Shown here: one piece after another, positions 20,222 through 61,688 of the stretch
Layout of the letters: every line of letters starts with the position of its first letter
How positions within the stretch are numbered: position 1 is the first letter of the stretch
Source of the DNA: a virus
DNA length: 64,000 nt
Reading direction: 5' to 3' (one strand)
IMG/VR virus record: IMGVR_UViG_3300032224_000723
Location: 62,001 to 126,000 of that record
Notes under the pieces: model-generated
The model's database searches: none
Seen by the model: only the letters and a program-made list of their open reading frames with translations
What the model was told of the DNA's origin: nothing
Program-made: the position numbers and the translations under genes

Positions 20222-20237
20222 AACATAGGAGAAAAGC

Positions 20238-44535: not shown

Positions 44536-44980
44536 CTACTTGTTTTATATCAATGTTGCACTTTTTAAGAAAGTCTACTCCCGCCATGTCCCGATAACTA
44601 TTGCGATAGTATACGCTAGATATACCGCTTTGGTATATAAGTTTGGCACAATCCAAACAAGGAGCGTGAGTAATAAAAATACTAGCATCACTACCGCTTT
44701 GGCTTGATTTGGCCAGCTTTGCAATCGCATTGGATTCAGCATGTAATACCTCTTTTCTTGTTACTAATTCTTCTATCTTTGTTTGGGGGTGTCTAAAGAC
44801 GTATTCACAATTATTATCCCAACCACTGGGCATACCATTATAACCAATGCTAATGATTGTATCATCTTTAACTATAATAGCACCTACATGTAAACGTGTT
44901 GCTGTACTACATTCAGCAAATATCTCCGCTGTTTTCATGTATGCTTTAATGTGTTTTTCTTTTATGACCAATTTGTCCAT
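44528..44980 (-). CDS. cd: dCMP deaminase
   Basis: 150 residues. Deaminates dCMP to dUMP for ThyA. HAESNAIAKL (H80, E82) and HAPCLDCAKLI (C108, C111) are the zinc and catalytic motifs; LHVGAIIVKDDTIISIGYNG and GWDNNCEY are family features. Such enzymes are common in T4-like phages. Its location inside the - strand modification operon, away from td, is notable. It overlaps both neighbours. Confidence 0.9.
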   Translation of the reverse strand: MDKLVIKEKHIKAYMKTAEIFAECSTATRLHVGAIIVKDDTIISIGYNGMPSGWDNNCEYVFRHPQTKIEELVTRKEVLHAESNAIAKLAKSSQSGSDASIFITHAPCLDCAKLIYQSGISSVYYRNSYRDMAGVDFLKKCNIDIKQVDV

Positions 44981-45624
44981 TTATCTGTTAGTTGATGAAA
45001 TTTTGATAGATCTAGGTGTTTATCACCAGGCATATAATTATTAATCATTTCAACAAGTTGGTTTGCTAGTTCTTGATTGTTGTCTATGCTTAAATGATTT
45101 TCCCTAGAGTCATGGAACAAAGCAAATTCTTTAGCATTTATTTCATTTAAACTTATAGATGTCAAACTAGGCCAAACATTAATTCCCGCCAACGCAGATC
45201 TTTGACTCCATGTCCACGGAAAACAATGTAAGTTTACTATCTTTGTGTGTGCCCACCTAACGGTAATTTCTTCAAACCATTTTTTATGTGCCCAATGTAC
45301 AAAATCACTGTCGTGTATATATTTGAAATAAAGTGCGACGGCAAGTTCTATTTCATTATTTTTATTCAATTGAGAATGATTAATCTTACCAATTGTTTTA
45401 TTACTAGTCGGAATTCTGTCAGAGTTAGTATGTGCAAATATCACTGCTTCACAGTTTTCAATATCAGCCTCACTAACTGAATTTAAAAAACATTTTACAG
45501 CCCACCAAGGTTGACCACCGCCGCCATAACAGATTAAATTTAAATTTAATTGTTTAGCTACCATAGTTGGCCAAAATTGATAGTAAGTTGAGAAACTGTC
45601 ACCTAATACAATTAAATTTTTCAT
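44962..45624 (-). CDS. SGNH-like hydrolase or related protein
   Basis: 220 residues. LIVLGDSFSTYYQFWP (block I GDSFS) near the N-terminus, a YGGGGQPWWAVKCF glycine segment and a late ENHLSIDNNQELANQL with a candidate His. It may deacylate or acylate a sugar or act as a lipase-like enzyme. It overlaps NodU by one base and dCMP deaminase by 19 nt. Confidence 0.6.
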   Translation of the reverse strand: MKNLIVLGDSFSTYYQFWPTMVAKQLNLNLICYGGGGQPWWAVKCFLNSVSEADIENCEAVIFAHTNSDRIPTSNKTIGKINHSQLNKNNEIELAVALYFKYIHDSDFVHWAHKKWFEEITVRWAHTKIVNLHCFPWTWSQRSALAGINVWPSLTSISLNEINAKEFALFHDSRENHLSIDNNQELANQLVEMINNYMPGDKHLDLSKFHQLTDKWTNWS

Positions 45625-47147
45625 TAGCTAACTACCTTTATTCCATATAGAGTTTCAAATCTATCTGCATCTGCGCGGTCGTTGACCATAGGCTCACCGC
45701 GTATATTTAGACTAGTGTTCAACAACATAGGACAGCCAGTCATCACGTACCACTTCTCTAGTAGTTCTCTTATACCGCTACCGTCTTTGGCGACAGTTTG
45801 TACACGACTAGATCCATCAACATGCACAATAGCAGGAAATAAATTAGGTCGTTTACACCAAGCAACGGACTGCATGTAAGGACTAGTTTCCCATCCCTTG
45901 TGCATATCGAAATACTCGTCGGCTAATTCAGCCAATATCACAGGTGCAAAAGGTCTAAACTTTTGTCTACGTTTGATTTCGTTTACACGATCTTTGATAT
46001 CAGGACCACGCGGGTCTGCAAGTAAACTTCTATTGCCTAGCGCCCGCGGACCAAATTCTGCACGTCCACTCGCCACACCAACAATGCCAGTAGTGACGAG
46101 ATGGTCAAGGGCATCATTAACAGGATACCCACCAGGGATGTCATGACCCAAAAAAGCAGTAGTCCAATTAATACGCTGACCGTAAGCAAGGGCCGCGGCG
46201 CCAAGGCTACTGCCAGCATCACCAGGATTAGGCATAATCCATATATTATCATAATAATCTCCTAAGTTTCTATTTGCTAAACAATTTAGGGCAACACCGC
46301 CCATGTAAACAAGATTTGTACTCCAGTCAAAACTTTTGGACCGGCGTATAACATTATATATCAACTTTTCCACAATCTCTTGTGCGGCCCATGCCCAAGC
46401 TTCATTATCTATTCTCCAATTACTTGTAATTCCCGTGTGTAAATTATCTCTGAAAATAATTTCTTGGTCATCTTTGATATAAACTCTACTCAATATGTCT
46501 GGTAGTAACTCTGTAGTTTTTCCATATGCAGCCATACCCATAAGTATGTATTCTTCTTCGTTGGGTTTTAGGCCCACTTCTTTGGTTATTGCACTATAAA
46601 ATAATCCAATGCTGTGTGGATATTTTTGTCCCCACAATTTTTTATACTTTGCCTGTCCTTTTTTATTGTACTCTGCGCCCCAAATACTTATAGTATCCCA
46701 TTCGCCAATAGCATCGATGACAACTACTGTAGCACGATTGAACGGACTTGTTTGAAAGCCTGCGGATGCATGACTTAGATGATGATTATAACTACTAGTT
46801 GATATATTAGTTAAAGGTCGAATCTCATCAGTTACTTGTTTATTTTTTAATTCCGTATACCAACTACCAAGTTGTTTTCGTAAAGATTGTTCTACGGTCA
46901 ATGACTGCCACTGGATACCTTCGCCACTGTATAACCTACGTAGTTGTTTAGCCCATGGGCGTTCGTAGTATGCAATTTCATTAATATCAAATTTAGAAAT
47001 TTCTTCAATAAGTCCAGCACTGATATTGGCGTCATTCTTTACTTTGCTATAACGTTCGCTATGGCCAGCAAAAAGTATATCGCCATGGCGATTTATAACT
47101 GTAGCGGCTGCATCGTGAAATCCAGCCGAAATTCCTAATATATTCAT
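45624..47147 (-). CDS. NodU/CmcH-family O-carbamoyltransferase
   Basis: 507 residues. Transfers a carbamoyl group from carbamoyl phosphate, via ATP, to hydroxyls of sugars or antibiotics. ILGISAGFHDAAATVI, HHLSHASAGF (metal-binding His pairs), DAIGEWDTISIWG and GGVALNCLANRN lie in the Kae1-like domain; GRAEFGPRALGNRSLLADPR, RPFAPVIL, SPYMQ and MLLNTSLNIRGEPM lie in the C-terminal half. The order is complete and the length normal. Its ATG overlaps the stop of a 33-residue gene. Linked glycosyltransferases make a sugar acceptor likely. Confidence 0.92.
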   Translation of the reverse strand: MNILGISAGFHDAAATVINRHGDILFAGHSERYSKVKNDANISAGLIEEISKFDINEIAYYERPWAKQLRRLYSGEGIQWQSLTVEQSLRKQLGSWYTELKNKQVTDEIRPLTNISTSSYNHHLSHASAGFQTSPFNRATVVVIDAIGEWDTISIWGAEYNKKGQAKYKKLWGQKYPHSIGLFYSAITKEVGLKPNEEEYILMGMAAYGKTTELLPDILSRVYIKDDQEIIFRDNLHTGITSNWRIDNEAWAWAAQEIVEKLIYNVIRRSKSFDWSTNLVYMGGVALNCLANRNLGDYYDNIWIMPNPGDAGSSLGAAALAYGQRINWTTAFLGHDIPGGYPVNDALDHLVTTGIVGVASGRAEFGPRALGNRSLLADPRGPDIKDRVNEIKRRQKFRPFAPVILAELADEYFDMHKGWETSPYMQSVAWCKRPNLFPAIVHVDGSSRVQTVAKDGSGIRELLEKWYVMTGCPMLLNTSLNIRGEPMVNDRADADRFETLYGIKVVS

Positions 47148-47250: not shown

Positions 47251-48378
47251 TTATCCTTCAGTAATATTTATAGTGCTACTGTAGTCATACCCCGGTTTCA
47301 TCATATCAATCTGCATTTGTTTGTATCCAGAATCAGCCCAACTATAATTAAACGTATTTGACACACCGTTAACTTCAATTTTATAGATGTCTAAGTGTGA
47401 ACCTAATATGTTCCATATAGTTTGATAGTCTTCAGTACCAAAACTCTCTTTTAACATAACTTGGCCAATTGGCAAATATCCTAAACTTAACTTAGGATCC
47501 ATTGGATCTCTTCCGTTGTCAATTAACCAATCATGAAATCTTTGTTGTTCTGTATTGTGCCAAGGCACTGGGCCACCGAGCTTAACATCGTTGCCCCATT
47601 CAACATCAAATTCCCCGCTATAATATTTTAGTTCAGTTATGGCTTCACATACTGTGTCTGTTAATTCTGGTGCACCTTCATCTCTAAAAACTTCAAATAG
47701 TGTTTTACCTATTTGTGTCCAATGCATATATACACCGCCTATTACACGATCATATCCATTTTGTAAAAATAACTGTCTATGATTATCTGTTAAATCAAAT
47801 CTAGGACTATTAATAAATGTTGTAATTTGACTGGGTCGTACCCAATAAGGAACTGTGGTTAATTTACGTTGGCTCAGTATTAAATTTTCTATTTCGTGAC
47901 AAATGTTATTCAATTGTCGTATTGCATATTTTGTTTCGTAGTCAGCACGACGATAGTAATCACTTAGATTCCAAACTGTGCCTTGCAACTGTTCAAAATG
48001 ATTGTGTAGTTTGTTCAACAATTCATGATTTGGTCCCAATGTACCCACATTAAATCCTTCTGTGGCTGTGTCAGGTGCTAATAAATTGTCGGGCTGTATA
48101 TCCAAATCAATTTGATAATCTGGAAAATAGTTATTGATTGTAACTACATGCATTTGCAATTCTGTGCATAGGTATTCTAAACTACGGGAAGTTTTTGGAA
48201 AACCCATAAAGCAAAAATTCTTTTCTAATAAATTATTAGACTGCAACAAACCTTTAAGTGCATGTGTCCAATCCCTTGCTAGTTCATTGTCTGCAGGTTG
48301 AATTACATAATCAATTTGATCGTTATAATTTAATGGATTACGTAGTACTACTTTAATTGATTGATTGCCACCACTCAT
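47251..48378 (-). CDS. Unknown protein, partner-type member 1, follows a radical SAM gene
   Basis: 375 residues. No known motif. It is homologous along its length to the 269-residue protein at 51219: VIGGVYMHWTQIGKTLFEVF (212-231) aligns with NIGDVKLQNPFVGHGPLQIF (157-176), and residues 258-306 align with 189-246 (including WLIDNGRDP/FFLKHDPG and GYLPIGQV/GYPVVGKV). Helical segments near 118-133 and 153-167 also match (LHNHF/LHKSV; LNNICHEIENLI/LVHELHYCLHLV). It overlaps the radical SAM gene 48353 by 26 nt, so the two are coupled. It may be the substrate carrier, scaffold or regulatory subunit. Confidence 0.7.
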   Translation of the reverse strand: MSGGNQSIKVVLRNPLNYNDQIDYVIQPADNELARDWTHALKGLLQSNNLLEKNFCFMGFPKTSRSLEYLCTELQMHVVTINNYFPDYQIDLDIQPDNLLAPDTATEGFNVGTLGPNHELLNKLHNHFEQLQGTVWNLSDYYRRADYETKYAIRQLNNICHEIENLILSQRKLTTVPYWVRPSQITTFINSPRFDLTDNHRQLFLQNGYDRVIGGVYMHWTQIGKTLFEVFRDEGAPELTDTVCEAITELKYYSGEFDVEWGNDVKLGGPVPWHNTEQQRFHDWLIDNGRDPMDPKLSLGYLPIGQVMLKESFGTEDYQTIWNILGSHLDIYKIEVNGVSNTFNYSWADSGYKQMQIDMMKPGYDYSSTINITEG

Positions 48379-49651
48379 ATACGTCCGGTCTTTGTTTTAG
48401 TATGTCCGCCATGGTATAAGTATCACCGCGGATCTTCTCTAATTGTAACACACGGGCTTTACCTTTTGCAAGACCTTTGGCATATTCATCAGGCCAAGAT
48501 TCAGCGAAAGTGGGTCTGGTTTTTAGCTGAACTAAGATATCCTGTAGGGCGTTGCCAGAAATCTTTAACTGGTCAATCATTTCGTCTACCCAAGGATGTA
48601 ATAGTTCCCGGGGTAGTGCTAACGGTGACATAACTATGTCCGGTGTAAAACTAAACACCACTTTTGCTAAAACATCTACATCTAACTCTTGTGCGAGTCT
48701 CCCAATATGTGCAACCTCGAACATTCCGGGCAAAGTGAGCGTAAAGTCAATTCGGACTTGACGACTGTGACGTCTGATTTTAAGTCCCTCACGGAAGTTT
48801 TCAAGCCACGTAGTATAGTCAAGGCCTGTTCTAATATATTCACCGATTGCGCCTGTTCCGTCGAGGCTTGCACATATCTGCCAATCCCGAAGCCTGCTAA
48901 GAATATCATTGTAAAGATTGATACCTTTATAATTAACCCTAGAAAGGTTAGTGTTGTATCGAGCATAAACATTTGGTCCGTCTCCCAATTCTATTATCCG
49001 TTTCATATAACGCCAATGTTGTTCGTACATTAAAGGTTCACCACCAACCCAATATACTTCTTCAACACGGTGTTCTTCGACGGCTTGACTAAACTCTGCC
49101 TCAATTTGTGTATCTTGAAACTGTTCAATCTGTTTTTTGATATCAGGCTGCATCCAATTATTCTTTGGATTATGCCAATTGATCATGTTGTGTTGGCGTT
49201 GCTCGCTTTCCCAAGCACTGCTTAACATGTCACCGCACATACGACATTTGAAATTACATAAGTTACTAAACCTATAATCCCAACTCACAGGCTTCATTGT
49301 AGTATAACCTGTAGTGTCTGTACTTGCGACTACTTCATTGTACTTATTCCCAAATAAACTATCAAAATAACTGCGGTAAACGGCAGTGTTTAAAAGTTTG
49401 TCATTACATACTTCACATTCAGGCAAAGTTTCACCTGCCATCATACGCCTACGCACAGACTTCATGTGTTCACTGTTCCAATGTTCGTCTAATGTGATAG
49501 GTATATATTTGCCAGTGCCAGCACTTGTGTCAATATACTGCTGAAAGTTTTGTGCAGGCTCTCTACTGGCGCAACACATTCTACGCTCAGTTTGTGGACT
49601 TAGATATGTATGGGTCCAAGGGGCCAAACATAGTGTATTAGGTTTTGTCAT
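48353..49651 (-). CDS. Radical SAM protein with N-terminal twitch/SPASM-like cysteines
   Basis: 432 residues. Auxiliary cysteine segment: CLAPWTHTYLSPQTERRMCC (C8, C26, C27), a HWNS helix, and ECEVC (C79, C82). Core CNFKCRMC (C132, C136, C139), YWVGGEPLMYEQHW, and a SLDGTGAIGEYIRTG motif. It ends with the LEKIRGDTYTMADILKQRP signature. It overlaps the oxygenase gene upstream and partner gene 1 downstream. Closest in layout to the proteins at 52021 and 53231. Confidence 0.88.
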   Translation of the reverse strand: MTKPNTLCLAPWTHTYLSPQTERRMCCASREPAQNFQQYIDTSAGTGKYIPITLDEHWNSEHMKSVRRRMMAGETLPECEVCNDKLLNTAVYRSYFDSLFGNKYNEVVASTDTTGYTTMKPVSWDYRFSNLCNFKCRMCGDMLSSAWESEQRQHNMINWHNPKNNWMQPDIKKQIEQFQDTQIEAEFSQAVEEHRVEEVYWVGGEPLMYEQHWRYMKRIIELGDGPNVYARYNTNLSRVNYKGINLYNDILSRLRDWQICASLDGTGAIGEYIRTGLDYTTWLENFREGLKIRRHSRQVRIDFTLTLPGMFEVAHIGRLAQELDVDVLAKVVFSFTPDIVMSPLALPRELLHPWVDEMIDQLKISGNALQDILVQLKTRPTFAESWPDEYAKGLAKGKARVLQLEKIRGDTYTMADILKQRPDVYEWWQSIN

Positions 49652-50156
49652 TGATCCAATTTATGTAAAGTGATTTTCGAATTATACCTGCAGGAACACT
49701 ACCAACCATTCCGTGAAATATTTTGTCGCTGTTTAACAATATTAATCCGGTGTTTTTCTTATAAGGAATTTTGAAACGGACACCTTCTTCATATTCTGTG
49801 CCGATTTCTAATTCCTCATCCCCTAAATAAATTATCATTACATTCTGTACACTTGGGGCATCATAATGAAAAGGATTAATATATCCTGGATGATCTCTCC
49901 ATAATTCCATTCCCCTAATCCTCGGTTTTTCAGTAACTGTGTGTATTATAAAAGATATCGAATCAAGTATACGATGGCGTAGGTCAGTGTTGTCACGAAT
50001 AAAACATACTTCTCTAGGATTATCACCGTTTGGTTGGCTTGGTCGAATCTGGTTACGAAAAAATGTATTACATCTATCAACTATGTCAGTTAATAGCACA
50101 GGATCAAATACATTTGATAATGCAAAGCCATTAGTTGATAAATTATTAATTTCCAT
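49638..50156 (-). CDS. 2-oxoglutarate/Fe(II)-dependent oxygenase-like protein
   Basis: 172 residues. FHYDAP gives the H-x-D iron ligands (H97, D99), KIFHGM the distal His (H148) and IIRKSLYINW the 2-oxoglutarate Arg (R160), on a jelly-roll framework (NVMIIYLGD, TGLILLNSD). Prolyl-hydroxylase-like enzymes of this kind hydroxylate peptides, sugars or small molecules. It sits between two radical SAM genes, with a 4-nt gap and a 14-nt overlap, so the same product may be hydroxylated as well as radically modified. Confidence 0.8.
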   Translation of the reverse strand: MEINNLSTNGFALSNVFDPVLLTDIVDRCNTFFRNQIRPSQPNGDNPREVCFIRDNTDLRHRILDSISFIIHTVTEKPRIRGMELWRDHPGYINPFHYDAPSVQNVMIIYLGDEELEIGTEYEEGVRFKIPYKKNTGLILLNSDKIFHGMVGSVPAGIIRKSLYINWINDKT

Positions 50157-50160
50157 TTGC

Positions 50161-51222
50161 TTATATACTTTGAAGAATGCCTAAATTATGATTTTTAAAT
50201 ATCGGATCTAACATGATTTCTTTTAATTCAGTATAATGAGGAGATTCTGGAATATGCACACACTGTTTAGAAAAATTGTGCCATGTGCCCCAGTCAGACA
50301 AATGAGAAAAGTTGGCATACATATTATAGTTTTCACATAAGTAAACAAATTCTTTCATTTCTTTATAATTAGAAATCTGAACTACAAAATTGCCTATCTT
50401 ATCTACATGATTCAATGATGACAAGTATCCTAAGTTTTCCAGCAAATTGTCCCATCGTCCCCCACGTCTAACTTTTTCGTAAGTTGTTTTGGTGGCTGCA
50501 TCTATACTAACTTCTATTTTCTTAATATTTGAAATAAAGTTTGTATCTAGTTCAGACAGTCGAGTTTTTAAAAATGATCCATTGGATCTAATATTAAATC
50601 TTATGTTTTTTAAGTGCTGGACTTGTTCAATGAAGAATAGATAAATTTTACTAACAAAAGGTTCACCGTTGGATCCTATCATGATATTAAATGTTTGGTC
50701 TTGCGCTGATCTAATCCACAATACTATTTTTTCAATCCATTTTTTTCTTACTTCGATATACTCTGAGGACGAATCCATTATCACCCTTTCTCTACAACTG
50801 GGGCAACTTAAATTACAACTCATATCAATTCCAACATTTAAAGTAATGCCATTAGCTTCGTTGATCATGTTTTGAATTTTTATCCCACATGAGTCAACTA
50901 CACAATATGTAAACTTTTTTTCTGTAATAGATTTTTGTATAGCCTGTGCTATTGGAGAATTAAAAACTTCTTCTATAGAATCGAATCCTTCAATAAGCCC
51001 CACTGGGTAAGGTAACCACCCATCACAGTTACACAAGAATATCCTACCTTTATGATCTAAATTTAAACTAGTCCAAGGTATTTTACAAGAATTTGCTATC
51101 CCTTGCTTGTCTGAAGGTAAGTTATGGACTTTTCTTATATACTCAAGATCATGATTGATGTTGCTAAGATAGCCATCTGGCATAGTTATCGTGGACCAAC
51201 TTCCTGCTGTGGGTTTCATCAT
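50161..51222 (-). CDS. Radical SAM protein, paralogue of the + strand protein at 3996
   Basis: 353 residues. Auxiliary cysteines C46 (CKIPWTSLNLDHKGR), C64/C66 (FLCNCDGW), C107 and C112; core CNLSCPSC (C136, C140, C143); IGSNGEPFVSK; and SIDAATKTTYEKVRRGG. This matches the 3996 protein motif for motif, including the C-x4-C spacing, and lacks the C-terminal D..R...P signature of the other group. It overlaps partner gene 2 (ATGA) upstream. Confidence 0.87.
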   Translation of the reverse strand: MMKPTAGSWSTITMPDGYLSNINHDLEYIRKVHNLPSDKQGIANSCKIPWTSLNLDHKGRIFLCNCDGWLPYPVGLIEGFDSIEEVFNSPIAQAIQKSITEKKFTYCVVDSCGIKIQNMINEANGITLNVGIDMSCNLSCPSCRERVIMDSSSEYIEVRKKWIEKIVLWIRSAQDQTFNIMIGSNGEPFVSKIYLFFIEQVQHLKNIRFNIRSNGSFLKTRLSELDTNFISNIKKIEVSIDAATKTTYEKVRRGGRWDNLLENLGYLSSLNHVDKIGNFVVQISNYKEMKEFVYLCENYNMYANFSHLSDWGTWHNFSKQCVHIPESPHYTELKEIMLDPIFKNHNLGILQSI

Positions 51223-52028
51223 TCAAATTCCAAACTATCAAATTCTAATTCTTTAATATTTAACACCACATGTAGATCATCTAGATTAGTAACTTTACCA
51301 ACAACAGGATATCCTGTGTAATGCAATATTTTTTCTGTCCCATGTAATTCAACAAACCCAGGATCGTGTTTTAAAAAGAAATCTAAAAGTTCATTGTGTT
51401 GGGTGAATGTACCGTAATTAGTTTGTGCTATATTGATACCTGGTTTAACCATGTCATGAAATTTACAAGTCTGTGTTATGTTAACCCCATCTTGTTCTTG
51501 AAAAATTTGTAATGGGCCGTGCCCCACAAAAGGATTTTGTAATTTAACATCCCCGATATTTAAATCATTTTTAAATTTAAAATCTAGGGGTAGACTAAAT
51601 CCTTCGTCGTTGAACCATTCTATTTGTAACCATGATCCTCTAGTAGATTGAATTCCGTTTTGAACTAGGTGTAAACAGTAATGCAACTCATGTACGAGAT
51701 AGTCATGCTTTGCAGGGATATCGTCAAAACCATAGCCGACTAATGTTTCTACACTTTTGTGTAATATCGGTGCAATATCATCATCAAAACCTGTATGTAA
51801 ATCCCACAGAGGGGATTCGAACTCCCATGTCCACTTGAATGCTTTTTTGGCCTTAACGATTAATTCTTTCATATACTTGTTAGTGTATTTTAGTGGGTCT
51901 CTGAATACAGGCGGGCTATGTGAATAATTTTCCTCAATTAATTTAAAATAATTATTTCCGACTTCTGAGTCTTCTATTTCTAATTTTAATGTTGGAGCAT
52001 TTCGAAATTGAACTAAAATTCTACTCAT
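51219..52028 (-). CDS. Unknown protein, partner-type member 2, follows a radical SAM gene
   Basis: 269 residues, no recognised motif. Homologous to the protein at 47251 (alignments given there) and in the same position: directly after a radical SAM gene, overlapping it by 8 nt. It has an internal HELHYCLHLVQNG helix, which contains HExxx but not a full HExxH protease motif, and many aromatic residues. It is likely a dedicated partner or substrate of the enzyme at 52021. Confidence 0.7.
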   Translation of the reverse strand: MSRILVQFRNAPTLKLEIEDSEVGNNYFKLIEENYSHSPPVFRDPLKYTNKYMKELIVKAKKAFKWTWEFESPLWDLHTGFDDDIAPILHKSVETLVGYGFDDIPAKHDYLVHELHYCLHLVQNGIQSTRGSWLQIEWFNDEGFSLPLDFKFKNDLNIGDVKLQNPFVGHGPLQIFQEQDGVNITQTCKFHDMVKPGINIAQTNYGTFTQHNELLDFFLKHDPGFVELHGTEKILHYTGYPVVGKVTNLDDLHVVLNIKELEFDSLEFE

Positions 52029-53244
52029 AACCCATAGCCTTTGCTATCTCTGGATGTGTATCCATAAAATTCTGCCGACGATATTCGTCTGCTTGTTTCA
52101 TTCGTCTTAAAAATTCTACCCCATCACTGCCTGGTCCATTTTCAATAAAGTTGATTAAATTATCTACTTCTTGTTGAAATTTATTAGATTTCCAAAACGT
52201 TAATTTTAATTTATTTAACACAAGTTCTTTTGCCTCAGGGGTCATATGTTGTATACTCATATGAGGAGGACTGTGTAGCATATTAAAGTAAATACTGCCA
52301 AACTTTTTAGTAATTGCCCACGACAACAATTCATCTAGATAGTAAACATTCTGAATGTTAACAGTAAAACAAAGTTGCGTAGTTATGTGACTTTGATTGG
52401 TATGCGCTGCCAATTGGAAGGAAGGCCAAGAAGCTTGGATCACTGCATCAATGTTTGCATTTGCTTCATCCCATTTTGCACCATATCGTTCATATTCAAA
52501 TCTGTTCCCAACATTGTCTATACTAAAGGCAATGTCAACTCGTTTAAATTTGCTCCAAATTTTAAAGAACTTGTTGGGACTAACTGTAGCATTAGTGTTG
52601 TAATGTATGTCAATATTTTCAGCGTACCCGTGTTCGCTTGCATACTCCAACAAATCCCAATGCTCTTGTATCAACCATGGCTCACCACCAGTAAACTCAA
52701 AGTATTTGATGTTGGGCAACAATGATTTTAAGTTTTCCCAGAACTCAGGACTTTCTTCAGGCCACGTTCCAGCCTTGAGCCACTTATATGCAATGTGCGA
52801 TTTTTTATCAGCACCTGGGGGCAAGTAATCCATTTCTTCTGCAGCCCACTTGCTACTTGACCATGAACCACAGATACGACATTTTAAATTACAGATATTA
52901 CCTAGTTTAAGATCAATGAACCATAACTGATCAGGAGTATCGTTTGCCCAATCGACTTCTGCGTATAGATCTTTTAATCGTATACGACTGTTAATTCGTT
53001 TGCTTATACGTCCAGCAGCTTCCTCATCCCAACATTGTTGACAAGTTGCAGGCTTTTCTCCAGCACGAAATTGTCTACGTAGATCCTGCATATACTCACT
53101 TTTATATGCATCCTCTAAGGTATTTTGTCTTAGATCAATAACAGGAATTTCTTCTCTTGCTAAACAGCAAGGGCGAGTAGTGCCCATGGGACTGGTTTCT
53201 ATACTAATCCATGGCAACATACAAATTGAATCAGGTAGGGTCAT
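52021..53244 (-). CDS. Radical SAM protein with N-terminal twitch/SPASM-like cysteines
   Basis: 407 residues. Auxiliary segment CMLPWISIETSPMGTTRPCC (C8, C26, C27) and CQQC (C68, C71); core CNLKCRIC (C118, C122, C125); YFEFTGGEPWLIQEHW; SIDNVGNRFEYERYG. It ends ADEYRRQNFMDTHPE, the shared terminal signature. It overlaps the next radical SAM gene by 14 nt upstream and partner gene 2 downstream. Confidence 0.88.
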   Translation of the reverse strand: MTLPDSICMLPWISIETSPMGTTRPCCLAREEIPVIDLRQNTLEDAYKSEYMQDLRRQFRAGEKPATCQQCWDEEAAGRISKRINSRIRLKDLYAEVDWANDTPDQLWFIDLKLGNICNLKCRICGSWSSSKWAAEEMDYLPPGADKKSHIAYKWLKAGTWPEESPEFWENLKSLLPNIKYFEFTGGEPWLIQEHWDLLEYASEHGYAENIDIHYNTNATVSPNKFFKIWSKFKRVDIAFSIDNVGNRFEYERYGAKWDEANANIDAVIQASWPSFQLAAHTNQSHITTQLCFTVNIQNVYYLDELLSWAITKKFGSIYFNMLHSPPHMSIQHMTPEAKELVLNKLKLTFWKSNKFQQEVDNLINFIENGPGSDGVEFLRRMKQADEYRRQNFMDTHPEIAKAMGYE

Positions 53245-54574
53245 AATCTTTTAATGGTTGTAGTTCTGTAAAAGTTGTCCAAAAGTCTTCATTACGTATT
53301 CTGTCTAAGTCTGCCACTTCTTTTTTAAATTTTGACCAGTGATATATTTGACTTTGATCGTTCATTAAGTTTAGTATGCTTTTAAATCCATTGGTAGCAC
53401 GTTTTAACGTATCCTGTGGTTCCAGCCAAGCAATGTGCTGTTCATATGCAGGCGTAATTGTTTGTTGTTTAAACCAGTCTGGGAATATATCTACCCTATA
53501 CCAATCAGGACTTTGACATATATTTACATTAAAGTCTTTGGCGTGAATCAATCCTTGTTCAGTCCATGCTTTATGGAAATCCAGCACATGAAGTACATTC
53601 ATCGCACTGATAGTTGCGCTGACATAAAAATCCACATGCGGTACTTGTTCCATCATACGACGTCGATTGTCTAGTGTTTGTGACCAATCTGTGCCTTTAC
53701 GTATTAATTCTGCACGTGGCCCCATGGCATCTAAACTAGCGCCTACACTTACATTTTTAAAATGTTTCCAATACTCAAATACGTGTTTGTCTTTAAATCT
53801 CAATTCACTGAAGTTTGTGTTATACTGTATGCGAACATCTGTTTTACCTGCTTCGATTAACTTCTCTAATAAGAAATAATGTTCCTTCATAATAAGAGGT
53901 TCGCCGCCTGCAAAATACACTTGTTCAAGATATGGTATATGCGGCATCATTTGTTCAATCATTGAATCTTCGTCGCCTGCTGTGTATTCTACACGGGCCA
54001 TGTCCCTGCCTAATACATCAGGTTTACGATCGTAGAGTTTAACATGGTCGTTGTACCAGTTACTGCTAAAGATAGGACCACAACTACGGCAACTAAAATT
54101 ACATAAGTTGCTAAATCTCACGTCCCAATATCTAATTTTAAAGTCTGGGTGTGTTCCATCAGGTTGTGTGTTATCCACTTCTTTGATATGATGACCGTAA
54201 TTACGATTACTATCGTATCGCATACTAAACGCACCATGTTGTTCCTGCTCATAGCACTTGTTACATTCTTTACAAGGTTTATCCTCAAGCATGTTTTGTC
54301 GCATTAAACGGTATGGCTCTTGATTCCATACTTGTTCCATAGTACTTTTACGTAAGTCACCTACAGGATGCCAGTAATCACTTAAACAGCACGGGTATGC
54401 ACGACCATCTGGAAAAGCATGCATGTGCATCCATGGTAACATACAAAACGATTTACTCTCGGTTAGTCGTTTCCATTGTGTATCTGTTAAATCGGACTTA
54501 TCAGCAAAATAAGGAGCACGTTGATTATAGTCGTAGCCCTTATTGTAAAAACCTTTTACGTCTTTATCTGTCAT
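53231..54574 (-). CDS. Radical SAM protein with N-terminal twitch/SPASM-like cysteines
   Basis: 447 residues. A 40-residue polar N-terminal extension precedes CMLPWMHMHAFPDGRAYPCC (C44, C62, C63) and CKECNKC (C101, C104, C107). Core CNFSCRSC (C158, C162, C165); YFAGGEPLIMKEHY; SLDAMGPRAELIRKG. End: LDRIRNEDFWTTFTELQP. The overall form is like typical phage twitch-domain radical SAM proteins. It overlaps both neighbouring radical SAM genes. Confidence 0.88.
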   Translation of the reverse strand: MTDKDVKGFYNKGYDYNQRAPYFADKSDLTDTQWKRLTESKSFCMLPWMHMHAFPDGRAYPCCLSDYWHPVGDLRKSTMEQVWNQEPYRLMRQNMLEDKPCKECNKCYEQEQHGAFSMRYDSNRNYGHHIKEVDNTQPDGTHPDFKIRYWDVRFSNLCNFSCRSCGPIFSSNWYNDHVKLYDRKPDVLGRDMARVEYTAGDEDSMIEQMMPHIPYLEQVYFAGGEPLIMKEHYFLLEKLIEAGKTDVRIQYNTNFSELRFKDKHVFEYWKHFKNVSVGASLDAMGPRAELIRKGTDWSQTLDNRRRMMEQVPHVDFYVSATISAMNVLHVLDFHKAWTEQGLIHAKDFNVNICQSPDWYRVDIFPDWFKQQTITPAYEQHIAWLEPQDTLKRATNGFKSILNLMNDQSQIYHWSKFKKEVADLDRIRNEDFWTTFTELQPLKDYDPT

Positions 54575-55950
54575 AATGTATTGTACCAGTTTGCGAGCGC
54601 AGGAAATGTTTCTGTAAAGTTTTTACCACGACGTTGATCATATTGCATGTAGAAGTTTTTAAAGTCACGTTGTAGCACAATTTGCGACATTGCTTCTTTG
54701 TGTGCTTCACTGACTTCACGAATATAGTCCAACAATCTTGTTAATTGATTCCATTCGTACTCATGCATTTCTGAGCCGTGCCTATAACTGTCAGCAAAGT
54801 CATTCAATTTGTTGTAATACATTGATCGGATATCTTCAGGAAATACAGTCAGTGATTGAAAACTAGGAAAGCGTAATATATTTAATGAAAAATTAATTGC
54901 ATCTTTTCCGTATTCACGTTTCCAATTCATAACCATTTCTAGGAAACTGTCCAGACTATCGAGACACAAAGCATTAATGGTACACATGACATGAAGCCCG
55001 CAAAATTTTCCGCTGTCCAGTAATCGTTCTACATTGTTGGCCCAGTCGTCGAATACAAGCCCGTCTCGAATATATTCTGCTTGTAGACTCATTGATTCGT
55101 TACTGGTGTACAAATCAACTTCAACACCATCAACTGCTGCCAACAATCTATCAATATCTACGTCTGTGCCTAGATTACTGTTAATGGCTAGTCGCGTCGT
55201 CGACTTGCCTTTATTGTTCTTAAACCACTCAATGAGGTTCCACGTGTGGGCGGACATGAGAGGTTCACCTCCTGTGATTCTAAGTTCTTTAAGGGTTCTA
55301 TGGAGGTCTGATTCCCACCATTTGAAGAATGCTTCCACATACGGATTAGTCTCACTGAATTTATAAAGTTGACTGCTATCATGAGTGTGAGTAAAATGGT
55401 TCCTACCGTCACTAACCAATCCTGTGTAGGATCCATTTTTTCTGATGTCATTAACCCAGGTACTACTAAATGCAGGGTTACAATAAGAACAAGCGAACTG
55501 GCAAGTGCGGTCAAAAGCAATTTCAAGAGTTTGAAGGTCGATGTCTGTCGTGGGGTCTGATTTGAATGCATGGTCTAAGTCCTCATCTGAATATATTACT
55601 GTTTTGTATACACGATCGCTAATAGGCACTGGCACATCTACACCAGTATATTTTGGATCTTTGTACATATCTTCAATCTTCCAGCAGTATTCACAACCAC
55701 TGGGACGTTCTCCTGCTTGCATTTGACTACGTTCAAATTTCTTTTTAGTAGTGTTATGCAGAGACTTGGGATTAAATTTAATTGCTTCAACATCAACTGC
55801 ATGTGGCAATGGATGATGGCAACTGGTTGTTTGCCCGCTGCCTAACCATATAGTGGCATTGTACCATTTTGCTCCGCAGAAACTTGCCGACTTAATGTCA
55901 ATGACTCTGCGTTTGTATTCTAAATCTGTTTCGTTGGGTAACCTAGCCAT
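54571..55950 (-). CDS. Radical SAM protein, subfamily with C-HHP/CW..ED segment
   Basis: 459 residues. Auxiliary cysteines C25, C44 (TTSCHHPLPHAVDVEAIKFN), C86 and C89 (GCEYCWKIED); core CQFACSYC (C150, C154, C157); LRITGGEPLMSAHTW. It ends YDQRRGKNFTETFPALANWY. It is closest to the protein at 57102 (same Hxx-P...D-AIK and CW..ED segments and RRG...TFP end). Only one cysteine sits at the position where other members have CC. It overlaps neighbours on both sides. Confidence 0.87.
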   Translation of the reverse strand: MARLPNETDLEYKRRVIDIKSASFCGAKWYNATIWLGSGQTTSCHHPLPHAVDVEAIKFNPKSLHNTTKKKFERSQMQAGERPSGCEYCWKIEDMYKDPKYTGVDVPVPISDRVYKTVIYSDEDLDHAFKSDPTTDIDLQTLEIAFDRTCQFACSYCNPAFSSTWVNDIRKNGSYTGLVSDGRNHFTHTHDSSQLYKFSETNPYVEAFFKWWESDLHRTLKELRITGGEPLMSAHTWNLIEWFKNNKGKSTTRLAINSNLGTDVDIDRLLAAVDGVEVDLYTSNESMSLQAEYIRDGLVFDDWANNVERLLDSGKFCGLHVMCTINALCLDSLDSFLEMVMNWKREYGKDAINFSLNILRFPSFQSLTVFPEDIRSMYYNKLNDFADSYRHGSEMHEYEWNQLTRLLDYIREVSEAHKEAMSQIVLQRDFKNFYMQYDQRRGKNFTETFPALANWYNTL

Positions 55951-57118
55951 TCACATGCTCCGACAATTTTGATAATGTTGTTTTCCAATTAATGTTTCTT
56001 AGCGAATCTATTTTTGTTAAATAATCTCTCCAGTCGTCACCACTTGTTATTCTTGCAGTTTCTAATTTAGAAATAATAGAATTTTTAATGTAAGCATAGT
56101 CATCCGAGATTGTTTGTAGATGATCTATAGCAGGTTGTTTTAATTCTTGGTCAATTGACTCTAAAGATAAAACATTCCCTCCGTAACTTTGGTCGCCCGC
56201 AAATGTTATGTATATCTCAATTGGATCTGTATTAGGTAATTCTGAGAAATGCGTGTTTTTCCAATCAATTATATCTTTTATATAAAACATATTAACCTTA
56301 CTAACTGTTACCCCTAATTGTAACCACATATTAGGAATCACCGAGTTTAAATTTCTAATGTTAAACATATTTTCTTGTACTTGAGACCATTTTGCCGGAT
56401 ATCTAATATATTCAAATTGATTACCTATTGCATCTATACTAAAATATATTTTTACTAATTTCGTTTTCTGCCATAGTTCTACGGCTTCATCTGTAGGAAA
56501 TACTGTGCCATTTGTATTATAACTCACCGTCACTTTACTTAGGTCACAACCTTGATGTTCCATCTCTTTTAAAACATTGACATGATCGTCTGTTAATAAC
56601 GGTTCACCTCCTTGAAAATGCAGTAGTTGAATTTTATTCAATGGCAAAGACTTGTATATTAAATTACCATTTCCAGACACTTTTACTTCACCACCTGTTA
56701 TAGGATATCCCAGTTTTTTATAATCAGGCTTCCATAACGAACTGTATCTAGGGCCGCAAGTAACACATTTTAAATTACAAACATTTTCACAATTATAAGA
56801 AAGACTTATTAATTCAACAGTATCATCTATGGTTATTTTATTTTGTTCAAATACCTTTTGTTGTCCTATTCTGTAGCTTTGTGTATTATGTTTTTCATGT
56901 ATTAAACATCTATTACATTCTGGCACAGTTTCAATTGAATTTCTTACATAATTTAAATAATCATTGTTATAGAAATCCACTACATCATAGGCATTATTAC
57001 TGAATACTTGATCACAACACATAGCAACAAGCGCAGATTGTTTATCAACTTTTTCAATATACAGACCTTTTTTATATAAAGGACAATCAATTTTTGTTTC
57101 GTTATGTTGTTTTAGCAT
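55943..57118 (-). CDS. Radical SAM protein with N-terminal twitch/SPASM-like cysteines
   Basis: 391 residues from ATG 57118, which lies within the previous gene's end; an in-frame start at 57145 would overlap more. It has C12, C34/C35 (VAMCC), CNRC (C68, C71) and core CNLKCVTC (C114, C118, C121); LLHFQGGEPLLTDDHV; SIDAIGNQFEYIRYP. End: IDSLRNINWKTTLSKL, a weaker version of the shared signature with the proline missing. Confidence 0.86.
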   Translation of the reverse strand: MLKQHNETKIDCPLYKKGLYIEKVDKQSALVAMCCDQVFSNNAYDVVDFYNNDYLNYVRNSIETVPECNRCLIHEKHNTQSYRIGQQKVFEQNKITIDDTVELISLSYNCENVCNLKCVTCGPRYSSLWKPDYKKLGYPITGGEVKVSGNGNLIYKSLPLNKIQLLHFQGGEPLLTDDHVNVLKEMEHQGCDLSKVTVSYNTNGTVFPTDEAVELWQKTKLVKIYFSIDAIGNQFEYIRYPAKWSQVQENMFNIRNLNSVIPNMWLQLGVTVSKVNMFYIKDIIDWKNTHFSELPNTDPIEIYITFAGDQSYGGNVLSLESIDQELKQPAIDHLQTISDDYAYIKNSIISKLETARITSGDDWRDYLTKIDSLRNINWKTTLSKLSEHVNG

Positions 57119-58496
57119 GATACTCACATTCTTTCCAAAAATCAATCATCTCTGGAAAGGTTCTTATAAAGCCAGTTCCCCTGCGCTTATCGTGTTCATT
57201 AAAGAACTTATAGAAATTAGCTTTTTGCATTTTAACATACTCTGGGTCCAAATTGCAACCTTCACGCATATAATCAATCACACGTTGTAGGCGTTGTGGT
57301 TCATAATCTTTAAATCCTTTAAAAGGCTTGTCTTCTGTTTCCAATTTACTAACCATAAACGCCCATGTTTCTTCTAATCGATCCACATAACTTTCAGGTA
57401 ACAACTGAACACTTTGCCATTCTGGATTACGAAGTATGGGAGTATCAAACCAAACACGTTGATATGTTTTGCTGTATATTTGTCTAAGTCCATGTATGCA
57501 ATTAATCAAATCGTGAAAACCTGTGACGTTCAAATTGTTCATGGTAATGATAAACGTCAAACTACTTCTATTAGGTACTTCATTTAAGAAACGATTAACA
57601 TTTTCCCAAAGACGTTCAAAGTTTAAACCGTCTCTTGCATATTCTGCTTTAAAGAATGTAGCATCTACACTAACATACTGCATAAAATGTTCCAAGTACT
57701 TAGGTTCGTTTGTGGTCAATTTTTTTACACAATCTAAATATTTTTCAAACAACTCAGGCTCAACACTAAAATTGCTAGTAACGTTTAGATGTAACTTAGG
57801 ACTAGGATTGGCCAATACATAATCAAATACACGATATGTATTTTTATCCATCAACGGTTCTCCGCCTGTCATCCTAAAATGTTCTAAGTTAGGATATAAT
57901 GTAGGCCACCATTCCCAAAATGCTTCTACATAGGGATTATACTCACGGGCAGGTATGAGGCGCCTGCGGCCAACAAAATGATCAGGAGCATTGTGAGGCA
58001 CCAAAGTAGGATATGCACCAAGTCTAGCAACTTCATCGGCCCATGAGCTGCTAAACTGTGGACTGCAATAGCTACACCGCAGATTGCAAGCGTGATTGAA
58101 ATTAACTTCAACATAACTAGGAATAACATTGTCTTCGAGTCCTGTACTATTTTTTATATTTTCAAAATCCACTGCGGCCCAAGGCTCACCGCTACGATAG
58201 TGACGGTCGCTTAGGTTACCTAAATCTTCTTGTGTCCAACAATAATTACATTCTTGTGGACGTTCGTTTTTTAACATCAACACACGTTGCTGTTTCTTAT
58301 GCTCAGTGTTATGTAAGGCTGCAGGAGTTAGTTTAATTGCATCAGCGTCAATTTGATGTAATGGAGGATGATAGCAACTGTTGTTTAGTCCTGTGGGTAA
58401 GTGTAGGCTTACCTGTTTCCATTTAGCCAAGCAAAGCGCGGGACCCAACTTAGATTTAGCATCTTCTGCGTCTGTTAGAAATACGCTTTTTACCAT
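57102..58496 (-). CDS. Radical SAM protein, subfamily with C-YHP/CW..ED segment
   Basis: 464 residues. C22, C41 (NNSCYHPPLHQIDADAIKL), C83 and C86 (ECNYCWTQED); core CNLRCSYC (C137, C141, C144); FRMTGGEPLMDKNTY; end HDKRRGTGFIRTFPEMIDFW. Its paralogue is at 54571, with one different radical SAM gene between them. First of the seven consecutive - strand radical SAM genes in the direction of transcription. It overlaps the glycosyltransferase-like gene by 7 nt. Confidence 0.88.
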   Translation of the reverse strand: MVKSVFLTDAEDAKSKLGPALCLAKWKQVSLHLPTGLNNSCYHPPLHQIDADAIKLTPAALHNTEHKKQQRVLMLKNERPQECNYCWTQEDLGNLSDRHYRSGEPWAAVDFENIKNSTGLEDNVIPSYVEVNFNHACNLRCSYCSPQFSSSWADEVARLGAYPTLVPHNAPDHFVGRRRLIPAREYNPYVEAFWEWWPTLYPNLEHFRMTGGEPLMDKNTYRVFDYVLANPSPKLHLNVTSNFSVEPELFEKYLDCVKKLTTNEPKYLEHFMQYVSVDATFFKAEYARDGLNFERLWENVNRFLNEVPNRSSLTFIITMNNLNVTGFHDLINCIHGLRQIYSKTYQRVWFDTPILRNPEWQSVQLLPESYVDRLEETWAFMVSKLETEDKPFKGFKDYEPQRLQRVIDYMREGCNLDPEYVKMQKANFYKFFNEHDKRRGTGFIRTFPEMIDFWKECEYHAKTT

Positions 58497-59416
58497 CCTT
58501 CAGCCTTACGAATAATTTCCATTTCTGACACTGTGGTGCCTAAATTCTTCTGTACTTTACTATAGTGATGTTTAAAGAAACGACTTTGCTCCGCTGTCAT
58601 ATCTACTATGGGCAATGCTAGCCTTTGTTGTAATGTTTGTCCTAAACTTACACAAGCAGATTCAGTGTCTCGTTGGAATGAACTCCATAATGATGCCAAT
58701 TGATCAAAGTCTTGCACTAATCGATAATCCCATTCACGTAGCATTGTAAGATATGTCCCTAGCCTTGCGCCATATATGGCCCAGAATCCGTTGTCAACAT
58801 CCATGCCTACACTTTGCCATATACACAAGTGATCGTAGTTTCTAGCATGTACTTTTTGTTCAAATTCTTGCAGGCTAGGTTTCTTGCCTCGGTCCAAGCA
58901 CATCTTAACACCTTCGCGGAATCCTGCTCTCCATGCCTGAAAGGGTGTGGCATTGGGATAAGTTGTGCTGTAACAATCATGCATAGGAACGTATAATGGA
59001 TCAAAGCAAAACTCAACCACAGTTTCATCTCTACCATCTGTGTTTTCATGTGTACGCATGTTGTTAACAAAGTCTTTGGTCCAGCAACTAAGTCCACCGT
59101 TGCCGTACATTAATCCATTAATGTGGTTACGTGCTTTCCAACGGAACACACAATCTTTGTTATTGTCATTTAATTTTAATTGTAGATTAAAAAACTCAGG
59201 GTCAGGTATGTTGTCACCATCAATTAATACAAACCTATCTGTGTCACTGGCTGCTGCCGCGGCTTTGTGTGCGGCATCACTGCCTTTAACACCATCTACA
59301 CGTTTGGCCCATGGAACCATATTTTGAATCTTAATCCAAAATTCTTCCTTTTTAGGTTCGTCATAAGTTAAAAATATGCAGTCAAGATCTGCAATGTCAA
59401 TTAGTTCTTCTGTCAT
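58490..59416 (-). CDS. GT-A-like glycosyltransferase
   Basis: 308 residues. CIFLTYDEPKKEEFWIKIQN opens the fold; RFVLIDGDNIPDPEFF carries a DxD-type metal/nucleotide-sugar motif (about 85-90); ARNHINGLMYGNGGLSCW and PFQAWRAGFREGVKM are shared with the larger protein at 42904, in which the DxD is lost. It likely transfers a sugar in the cytoplasm. It is coupled to the radical SAM series. Confidence 0.7.
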   Translation of the reverse strand: MTEELIDIADLDCIFLTYDEPKKEEFWIKIQNMVPWAKRVDGVKGSDAAHKAAAAASDTDRFVLIDGDNIPDPEFFNLQLKLNDNNKDCVFRWKARNHINGLMYGNGGLSCWTKDFVNNMRTHENTDGRDETVVEFCFDPLYVPMHDCYSTTYPNATPFQAWRAGFREGVKMCLDRGKKPSLQEFEQKVHARNYDHLCIWQSVGMDVDNGFWAIYGARLGTYLTMLREWDYRLVQDFDQLASLWSSFQRDTESACVSLGQTLQQRLALPIVDMTAEQSRFFKHHYSKVQKNLGTTVSEMEIIRKAEGW

Positions 59417-59750
59417 AATATTCTATATCTGGATATGTTTCATTTTCTTCGAGTAGCAATGCCGCATTATTTTTAACAACTCGGTAACCTTTATTACTTT
59501 TAATTAGACGTGAAACAAGTCCGTTATTTTGTACAATTTTTTCTAATACACCATTAACTACATGATACCTATAGTACATATCATATGTTTCTTTATCGAC
59601 CACAACATATTGGGTCGATTCTGGATGTTGTACCATAGTACACAAATAAATGTCACCCAATTCATTATAATGAAGACGATACTCTATGGGTTCATCCTCT
59701 GTTACAATCATTGAATTGAGTGCTTTAAGTAATTCCGATTCGCTGTTCAT
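59397..59750 (-). CDS. Small beta-rich protein, unknown
   Basis: 117 residues: acidic, with YRLHYNELGDIYLCTMVQH and QYVVVDKETYDMYYRYHVV strands and a VVKNNAALLLEEN end. No catalytic motif. It lies between two glycosyltransferase-like genes with overlaps on both sides and may be an accessory subunit. Confidence 0.6.
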   Translation of the reverse strand: MNSESELLKALNSMIVTEDEPIEYRLHYNELGDIYLCTMVQHPESTQYVVVDKETYDMYYRYHVVNGVLEKIVQNNGLVSRLIKSNKGYRVVKNNAALLLEENETYPDIEYYDRRTN

Positions 59751-60585
59751 AGTATTTAATTATTTCATCTGTGGCAAAATTTTTATCAAAATAATGCACT
59801 GGGTAGTATTGATTTAAATTGTTAACCCTAATAATATCACCGTCAAATTCCCCAATAACTGAATCAGCCCATGATCTATTTTCATCCAGCCCGTTTATGC
59901 TAGATTTCATATGTACAAAATTGATAAAATCTGCACTGGGAATCGTGCAATGTTCTCTGCCAATGACTTCAGTGACTATTGCGTACAATACATCAGTGCT
60001 GGGTTTATCTTCTCTACAGTTCTTTAAAATTTGATCTTTTATTTCTAGCCAATTCAATGTTAATTGTTTTGCAAGCACAAAAAAATCTACCGCTGTTTTA
60101 CTATATCTAAAGTACATTAATCCATTGTAGACATCAGGTAAATTGTTGTCATCAAACAACTGCCTATATGTTCTAACATTGGACATTTTTCCAAGATAAT
60201 TTTTACAGCCCGTACTTAGTACAATATCTTTTAATCTAAATGTATTCCACCAATGATCAATACTTCTACCAAACAACAAATCACTTTCCAACTTAATTGT
60301 TTCTTTAAAAGGTGTTAACCAAAATACCTGCCATTCATTCGATAACTTCCAGTTGCTGTCCGGATCATTATAATCATCAGTTAGTTCTATCACATAGTCA
60401 AACACTTGCCTATGTTGATCTGTTACTAGTTGTGCTGTTGATTTGTCTACGATAACTGCATACTCGGCTGAAGGTTGTGTTGATTTTATGTTCATTGCCT
60501 GCAGGTATGCAAGTTTGAGATAGTCCACAGATTCTGTGTTTTGTGCAAAGGTTACAAAACCTCGTTGTGATTTATGCTGACTCAT
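59725..60585 (-). CDS. Glycosyltransferase-like protein (GT-A type), paralogue of next gene
   Basis: 286 residues from ATG 60585, chosen because it aligns with the start of the paralogue at 60572; the frame extends 27 nt further upstream. RGFVTFAQNTESVDYLKLAY matches GVVVFAFNSTTVNYVKIAD in the paralogue, and TIKLESDLLFG stands where that protein has TTILLDCDYLVLD. The ESD/DCD element fits a GT-A metal-binding motif. The acceptor is unknown. Confidence 0.6.
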   Translation of the reverse strand: MSQHKSQRGFVTFAQNTESVDYLKLAYLQAMNIKSTQPSAEYAVIVDKSTAQLVTDQHRQVFDYVIELTDDYNDPDSNWKLSNEWQVFWLTPFKETIKLESDLLFGRSIDHWWNTFRLKDIVLSTGCKNYLGKMSNVRTYRQLFDDNNLPDVYNGLMYFRYSKTAVDFFVLAKQLTLNWLEIKDQILKNCREDKPSTDVLYAIVTEVIGREHCTIPSADFINFVHMKSSINGLDENRSWADSVIGEFDGDIIRVNNLNQYYPVHYFDKNFATDEIIKYYEQRIGIT

Positions 60586-61396
60586 TACAAAACCCATCAA
60601 CAAAATATTCAAAGTCTCTGCTAGATAAAAACTTTTTATCCATTATGTGTATGTTTTGTTTAGCAACTACATCTGCAGATTCTTTATGTCTTAGGATAAT
60701 AAAATTATTTTTAATTTCAATTGATTCAATCCCTTGATCGACGGTGAGCATGGACCATGGGATACCCCTATGCTCGTTTAGATCATATCCATTTAAAATT
60801 AAATTGGCCATAGCAAATGCATGATCATTTCTATATGACCCCACACAATTAAATAATATAGAGTAATAAAGATAATTCTGTTGAATTCTACCAATTAAAT
60901 CAAAGTATTGTTTAGATAGTTCAGATTTGTTAAACAGAACCACAGTCGCCCATACAAAGGGTAGACCTAGTGTACCCATGATTTGATACATTTCTTCTTT
61001 TGGTCTATGACTATTGTGCATTAATCTGTAATCAAATTGTTGATCCAATAGATTTAATAAAGAATTATCCAGTACCAAATAGTCGCAGTCAAGTAAGATA
61101 GTAGTGTCGTATGGACTTAGCTCATATGCAAGGTACCTATCAAAATTACGCCACTCAACTAGTTCTCCACTGGAGCTGTTTCTAAGATTCCCTGTTTGAC
61201 TATCAACTTTAATCACACGGTCATAATTAAATTTTGGGTCTGCGTTGATATCTGTTATTAATGTTATTGGCAGTTTTAAATTAGCATCAATTAGTCTACT
61301 AGATTGATCTGCTATCTTTACATAATTTACTGTTGTCGAGTTAAATGCAAATACAACTACACCTTTAGATTTTTCTAATTCTTTTGAGTTCGTCAT
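60572..61396 (-). CDS. Glycosyltransferase-like protein (GT-A type)
   Basis: 274 residues. VVVFAFNSTTVNYVKIAD, LPITLITDINADPKF, TTILLDCDYLVLD (DxD-like), and FVWATVVLFNKSE and NDHAFAMANLIL segments resemble glycosyltransferases acting on nucleotide sugars. Paralogue of the following gene (59725). It overlaps the small gene upstream by 32 nt. Its nearness to tail-fibre-like genes makes fibre glycosylation one option. Confidence 0.65.
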   Translation of the reverse strand: MTNSKELEKSKGVVVFAFNSTTVNYVKIADQSSRLIDANLKLPITLITDINADPKFNYDRVIKVDSQTGNLRNSSSGELVEWRNFDRYLAYELSPYDTTILLDCDYLVLDNSLLNLLDQQFDYRLMHNSHRPKEEMYQIMGTLGLPFVWATVVLFNKSELSKQYFDLIGRIQQNYLYYSILFNCVGSYRNDHAFAMANLILNGYDLNEHRGIPWSMLTVDQGIESIEIKNNFIILRHKESADVVAKQNIHIMDKKFLSSRDFEYFVDGFCNESA

Positions 61397-61682: not shown

Positions 61683-61688
61683 AGACAA

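Follow-up and report, generated by a model that had tools for sequence, protein, structure and literature searches.

Radical S-adenosylmethionine (SAM) genes have previously been described in T4-like phages. The pelagimyophages carry cassettes of such genes in the tail-fibre host-recognition region, which also encodes glycosyltransferases, mostly of the GT8 type (PMC7029224), and the T4-like marine environmental genome TARA_ERS488813_N000010 contains 12 radical SAM genes (PMC5332604). In this study, we analysed a radical SAM operon located within a stretch of 64,000 nucleotides (referred to as the window), i.e. positions 62,001-126,000 of IMG/VR virus record IMGVR_UViG_3300032224_000723, a 157-kb contig. 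Compared by description, this phage resembles the T4-like pelagimyophages in the placement of radical SAM and GT8 glycosyltransferase genes beside tail fibres, and the TARA genome in the number of its radical SAM genes. However, the pelagimyophage cassettes are variable additions between two genomes, whereas the lineage described here has a fixed core, in a fixed order, in dozens of loci; the passage on these genes in the report on the TARA genome deals with Fe-S metabolism, and not with an operon, synteny or sugar genes. No account of the core order, the sugar partners, the BtrN-like site or the bacterial linkage described below was found in open-licence full texts. We give roughly even chances to the interpretation that the operon, situated in the fibre module of an uncultivated T4-like jumbo-phage lineage, encodes a soluble line of glycan-tailoring enzymes, with a fibre glycan as its probable product.

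The original prediction, made from the nucleotide sequence, placed seven consecutive radical SAM genes in a single operon. Seven intact minus-strand open reading frames (ORFs) with a CxxxCxxC motif and short overlaps are present, but only five of them are strictly consecutive, namely R7 (57102-58496), R6 (55943-57145), R5 (54571-55950), R4 (53231-54574) and R3 (52021-53244). These are followed, on the same strand, by g269 (51219-52028), R2 (50161-51222), a gene encoding a protein of 172 amino acids (aa) (49638-50156) and R1 (48353-49651), and the spacings within the radical SAM series range from -44 to +4. The R6 ORF extending to 57145 has a TTG start; the form used in the scans (390 aa) ends at 57115. 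Three further radical SAM genes of the plus strand, R8 (3996-5105), R9 (27542-28750) and R10 (39099-40610; encoding an extra N-terminal domain), as well as the predicted QueE gene (about 21312-22217), were confirmed in the window, and the 157-kb contig contains 13 PF04055 places in total, 12 of them with a match to NF033640. The operon exceeds the span originally assigned to it: same-strand genes extend from the fibre-like genes at 63998 as far as 42904, and the gaps between them are no longer than 47 bp, apart from a single gap of 103 bp ahead of the carbamoyltransferase gene. The same strand continues on from baseplate- and fibre-type genes (identified by eye), again with short gaps.

All ten radical SAM proteins were compared with hidden Markov models, and each matches PF04055 and NF033640 (N_Twi_rSAM, "twitch domain-containing radical SAM protein"; curated NCBIfam cut-off of 170 bits) to some degree. 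Eight of the ten are placed above the NF033640 cut-off (203-402 bits), with nearly the whole model covered: R1 (E = 1.6e-86), R3 (1.6e-105), R4 (2.5e-120), R5 (1.7e-79), R6 (7.4e-60), R7 (7.7e-93), R9 (4.5e-76) and R10 (1.2e-60). Since the E-values of these N_Twi members range from 1e-59 to 1e-120, a chance match is excluded. R2 (54 bits) and R8 (50 bits) fall below the cut-off and are each other's nearest relatives (31% identity). The observation that auxiliary cysteines precede the core holds for all ten proteins in so far as N-terminal cysteines are present in each, but R2 and R8 cannot be counted as N_Twi enzymes. PF13186 (SPASM), where detected, is also found at the N-terminus (residues 46-107 in the SPASM-like R2). 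The phage enzymes therefore do not follow the classical SPASM/twitch order, in which the module is C-terminal to the core. This reversed arrangement, originally thought to be unusual, is not new, because the N-terminal cysteine module places most of the proteins in NF033640, an existing NCBI subfamily of which it is a trait.

A detailed inspection of 30 aligned sequences representing eight paralogue groups revealed that C44, C62, C104 and C107, together with C158, C162 and C165 of the core (R4 numbering), are invariant. The N-terminal part of the family profile could be aligned to the twitch domain at the C-terminus of BtrN (4m7s/4m7t; E = 1.8e-5 for the whole-protein profile and E = 0.0065 for the twitch-only profile); a PDB search with a single twitch-part sequence gave no match, and the family profile was required. 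The four N-terminal cysteines match Cys169, 187, 232 and 235 of BtrN (4m7s chain numbering, counted from the printed alignment), the alignment having no gap between the first two ligands (CX17C) and closing with CX2C. In BtrN the twitch domain is C-terminal and the protein is smaller, whereas the phage enzymes are permuted and contain an extra C-terminal helical part.

BtrN is an aminocyclitol oxidiser (2-deoxy-scyllo-inosamine dehydrogenase of the butirosin pathway), whose auxiliary cluster has four Cys ligands and has been proposed as an electron acceptor during a two-electron oxidation (PMC9012708). A BtrN-type auxiliary site in the phage enzymes would point to an oxidative or epimerising reaction. 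The butirosin pathway includes an aminotransferase, and an aminotransferase gene also adjoins the phage cassette. Whether the N-terminal cysteines form one or two extra clusters had been left to structure prediction. Because the four invariant Cys share the BtrN spacing, the alignment supports a single auxiliary cluster in each N_Twi enzyme, and the AlphaFold2 model obtained for R4 is of high confidence (predicted local distance difference test, pLDDT, of 91.5). In a Foldseek search with this model, the radical SAM core alone was matched, with partial template modelling (TM) scores of 0.3-0.5.

Searches with R1 identified 541 matching IMG/VR stretches, of which the best 80 were fetched, and gene counts refer to the 51 loci that span 20.5 kb or more around R1. 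The 51 loci are not 51 independent observations, because some are near-duplicates from related samples, and the presence of R1 in 51/51 follows by construction from the way in which the loci were fetched, which does not apply to the counts of other genes. The gene order R7-R5-(R4)-R3-R1-g375 is kept in all 51 loci, with R7, R5, R3 and R1 as the invariant core, and the carbamoyltransferase gene then follows in 50 of them. R4 is near-invariant, with no trace in 9 of the 51 loci, and the idea that it is required in every operon was rejected on this ground. R6 (1/51) and R2 (2/51) are rare inserts, as is g269, which has no Pfam or PHROG match and for which a homologue was found only in locus L021 of the first locus set. 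Comparison of gene neighbourhoods excludes the view that these genes are unlinked random cargo in the case of R7, R5, R4, R3 and R1; it fits the three inserts. The conserved cassette, with a fixed core and accompanying sugar genes, supports the suggestion of a multi-step pathway. Each of 88 loci has 4-8 radical SAM genes in the interval from GT308 to the carbamoyltransferase, and whole records contain up to 16 N_Twi matches (a record of 356,865 bases).

The identity of related proteins to those of the window phage is 76-86% for DNA polymerase (16 records), 74-82% for R1 and 69-79% for R4, orthologues of which were found in 46 IMG/VR loci. By this measure, R1 and R4 are conserved about as much as the phage DNA polymerase and are core genes of the lineage. 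As the core genes are conserved like the replicative polymerase across a large lineage, the product of the cassette must matter to infection. By its DNA polymerase, the lineage is related to Sinorhizobium phage Phosso and Agrobacterium phage Atu_ph07 (47-52% identity).

The radical SAM proteins are diverged paralogues, as predicted, with about 20-30% identity to one another. The origin of the seven genes by recent duplication within the phage was considered and rejected: orthologues are mostly 60-82% identical, and a tree puts bacterial sequences between the paralogues. In this tree, R1, R4, R5 and R7 form one group each, and so does R3, except for that of a phage from an archaeal bin. The R7 group has a bacterial sister (L077) and R4 lies near L092 and L062, only single phage groups being near bacteria. 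The grouping therefore suggests that the paralogues are older than the phage radiation, although this was a quick tree with long branches, whose deep joins are unsure. Two loci from cellular genomes, L074 (gammaproteobacterial metagenome-assembled genome (MAG) NZGL01000008.1) and L099 (Pacearchaeota MAG NZDU01000006.1), contain fibre genes or genes of the phage cassette and seem to be phage contigs that were assigned to cellular genomes in binning.

A search of phage records for near-identical DNA gave no match. Of the 50,697 annotated phage records, only those of Vibrio phages K566/K567 and one single-cell fragment contain distant relatives of the core enzymes that were tested (22-28% identity), and none of these records has a match to R7; the lineage with the cassette is missing from the culture-based records searched. 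Vibrio phages K566/K567 resemble the window phage in having three annotated radical SAM genes close together, distant relatives of R4, R3 and R1 (22-24%), but they have no R7 match and no core match above 25% identity.

A tandem radical SAM array is not in itself a novelty, since such arrays also occur in bacterial chromosomes. A genome scan for bacterial relatives yielded 39 loci, mostly from Bdellovibrionota, with up to 20 N_Twi genes per genome. Two Bdellovibrionota-type chromosomes contain very dense N_Twi arrays, at G044:C1:745513-774880 and at G043:C7:90367-100008, the latter with seven genes in 9.6 kb. The bacterial arrays belong to the same subfamily and are tandem, and carbamoyltransferase and GT308 homologues lie near some of them (the latter adjoin N_Twi genes in L085); however, they are chromosomal, often occupy both strands and do not have the phage core order. 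In 20 such bacterial genomes, 21 carbamoyltransferase places were counted, and 10 of these are no more than 10 kb from an N_Twi gene, against about 1 expected on a generous estimate (p about 1e-8, a value that ignores contig ends and gene clustering).

The constant companions of the radical SAM genes in the phage lineage include several predicted sugar genes. The carbamoyltransferase (45624-47147, minus strand) is of the NodU/TobZ type and contains both Pfam domains above the cut-off (PF02543, E = 3.6e-34; PF16861, E = 4.4e-48). The plus strand encodes a nucleotide-sugar 4,6-dehydratase/epimerase-like short-chain dehydrogenase/reductase (40858-41832; TIGR01181, E = 4e-36, below cut-off) and a DegT-family sugar aminotransferase (41814-42923; best NCBIfam match PseC, E = 1e-48, below cut-off). 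Among 39 loci extending beyond g543, DegT is present in 37 and the dehydratase/epimerase in 33, likewise on the opposite strand. The glycosyltransferase-like genes of the minus strand are (i) GT308 (58490-59416), a putative GT2-like enzyme 63-85% identical in 93 loci, for which 7 of 16 members match PF13641 weakly (best E = 0.011) and a PDB profile search gave no hit, (ii) GT295 (59725-60612), a glycogenin-like (GT8) protein with a profile match to glycogenin-1 3v90 (E = 1.4e-4), and (iii) GT274 (60572-61396), the weakest call, 36-58% identical in 69 loci, with invariant D103/D105 but no significant match in Pfam or PDB profile searches. The C-terminal half of g543 (42904-44535, minus strand) shares a domain with GT308 (hhalign probability 99%, E = 2e-18), and the GT2 signal of this domain is weak. 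The carbamoyltransferase, aminotransferase, dehydratase and glycosyltransferase-like genes, together with variable SGNH-like cargo, are company typical of glycan biosynthesis.

Our preferred interpretation, glycan tailoring for the fibres, may be set out as follows. The 4,6-dehydratase-like enzyme and the DegT aminotransferase would provide keto- and aminosugar precursors, and the GT8-like and GT2-like transferases would attach the sugars. R7, R5, R3 and R1, usually with R4, would then each be responsible for a position of its own: a hydrogen on a sugar carbon would be abstracted by the 5'-deoxyadenosyl radical and the leftover electron accepted by the N-terminal auxiliary [4Fe-4S] cluster, resulting in a ketone, as in BtrN, or in an epimer once a hydrogen is returned. 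The carbamoyltransferase would cap the sugar, while R6, R2, the 172-aa protein and the SGNH-like proteins could be exchangeable tailoring add-ons. The glycan would most likely be placed on the tail fibres encoded by the same operon. That the lineage uses four to five non-redundant radical enzymes, each altering one conserved fibre glycan differently, which would be the first function for the N_Twi subfamily, is a tentative proposal that we rate below even odds. The cassette opens this subfamily to testing as a pathway, by providing fixed partners, a chemistry to be expected of the auxiliary cluster and a class of candidate substrates. If the product is a fibre glycan, phages make chemically unusual sugars through radical chemistry, and the linked arrays of the predatory Bdellovibrionota may make related surface glycans.

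Several observations weigh against this interpretation. Foldseek analysis of R4 retrieves the peptide enzymes anSME and CteB no less readily than the sugar enzyme BlsE, and enzymes acting on peptides and cofactors also carry the twitch domain, in its SPASM form. The putative assignment of a sugar substrate to the N_Twi enzymes is made by analogy, from gene company and the twitch domain, and the fibre is a putative acceptor. The dehydratase and aminotransferase genes lie on the opposite strand, outside the operon, and at the level of sequence GT274 and GT308 are supported weakly or not at all as glycosyltransferases.

The same sugar chemistry could serve a product located on the host surface, i.e. 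an O-chain or capsule remodelled to block superinfection or to change the phage receptor. The authors of the pelagimyophage study proposed O-chain modification by glycosyltransferases of the fibre region, the very region that gains radical SAM cassettes (PMC7029224), and by inspection of neighbouring genes the bacterial N_Twi arrays sit among apparent envelope-polysaccharide genes. However, the operon lacks a membrane glycosyltransferase of the Gtr kind or a flippase. No membrane segments were predicted in any operon product, a result that counts against a host-surface cassette of the Gtr type and agrees with a soluble, cytoplasmic route to the modification of virion proteins; multi-pass proteins are almost absent from the 88 related loci as well, with at least two predicted segments in only 5 of 893 cassette ORFs. 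The position of the operon on the same strand, after fibre and baseplate-type genes, suggests late expression, which also speaks against this option, and we regard a host-surface product as rather unlikely.

It is unlikely that the radical SAM enzymes instead epimerise or cross-link residues of a peptide or protein (the fibre, g107 or g117), in the manner of ribosomally synthesised and post-translationally modified peptide (RiPP) pathways. The solved SPASM/twitch enzymes in the R4 Foldseek list, which include sactipeptide, anSME and epimerase enzymes, are in agreement with such a role, and the small conserved genes g107 and g117 share the operon. However, domain borders and predicted secondary structure give no indication of a RiPP recognition element (no dedicated search was made, and some maturases have none): the twitch module stands at the very start of R1 and R3, and the R4 model is entirely helical in its C-terminal part. 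The neighbours are sugar genes, including the carbamoyltransferase and the sugar aminotransferase, and it would be unusual for a single short peptide to require four to five enzymes that are so unlike one another. A small product that diffuses or is linked to DNA, e.g. a modified nucleobase or an inhibitor, with incidental proximity to the fibres, seems very improbable; queuosine-type genes (QueE, QueD-like) do occur in the window, and MoaA, viperin and QueE are fold neighbours of R4, but the queuosine-type genes are separated from the cassette by over 20 kb and lie on the opposite strand, while sugar genes and fibres are the constant company of the cassette.

The remaining genes of the operon, all of the minus strand, complete this picture of the locus. 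Directly downstream of R1 is g375 (47251-48378), which is found there in all 51 loci. It has many invariant residues and an AlphaFold2 model with a pLDDT of 85.9, for which Foldseek found no PDB match at E <= 0.001, and it is therefore a candidate for a new fold or a new enzyme. At the upstream end lie F312a (61736-62674; without a Pfam match) and its paralogue F312b (62684-63622), fibre-like proteins whose homologues adjoin the cassette in related contigs; for F312b, a structural role is suggested by position and sequence. F312b is adjoined by a fragment resembling a fibre end domain (63636-63998). The small conserved proteins g107 (61365-61688) and g117 (59397-59750) are 49-74% identical in 54 loci and 28-58% identical in 89 loci, respectively. 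The 172-aa protein, a variable insert, is putatively 2-oxoglutarate (2OG)-Fe(II) oxygenase-like; it has no Pfam match of its own, and its homologue in L025 has a weak match to PF03171 (E = 0.024). A dCMP deaminase gene (44528-44980; PF00383, E = 1.9e-20) is a common passenger.

The adjacent gene (44962-45624) encodes a protein without a Pfam match that was assigned by eye as SGNH-like; related loci often carry proteins similar to it as cargo (cluster 0; 86 ORFs in 39 loci). Also in related loci, 45 copies of a minus-strand family of proteins of about 390 aa recur between GT308 and g543. This family and other cargo share a TEKxxKP...PF-like motif, by eye resembling some glycosyltransferases, and no convincing Pfam match was obtained when the related cargo proteins were scanned.

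The plus strand of the window contains a 7-deazaguanine gene set (7559-22217), which may serve DNA modification. It comprises, besides QueE, a QueD-like gene (20238), a GTP cyclohydrolase-like ORF (15151, identified by eye) and an ORF of 517 aa (7559), which by eye is similar to tRNA-guanine transglycosylase/DpdA and has no library match.

The T4-type late promoter sequence TATAAATA is present in one copy in the window (47265-47272, minus strand), against 6.5 expected. This copy stands about 120 bp before the carbamoyltransferase gene and is suggestive, at most, of a possible late-promoter signal. ATAAATA is strongly avoided on both strands of the window, with 5 copies found against 25 expected.

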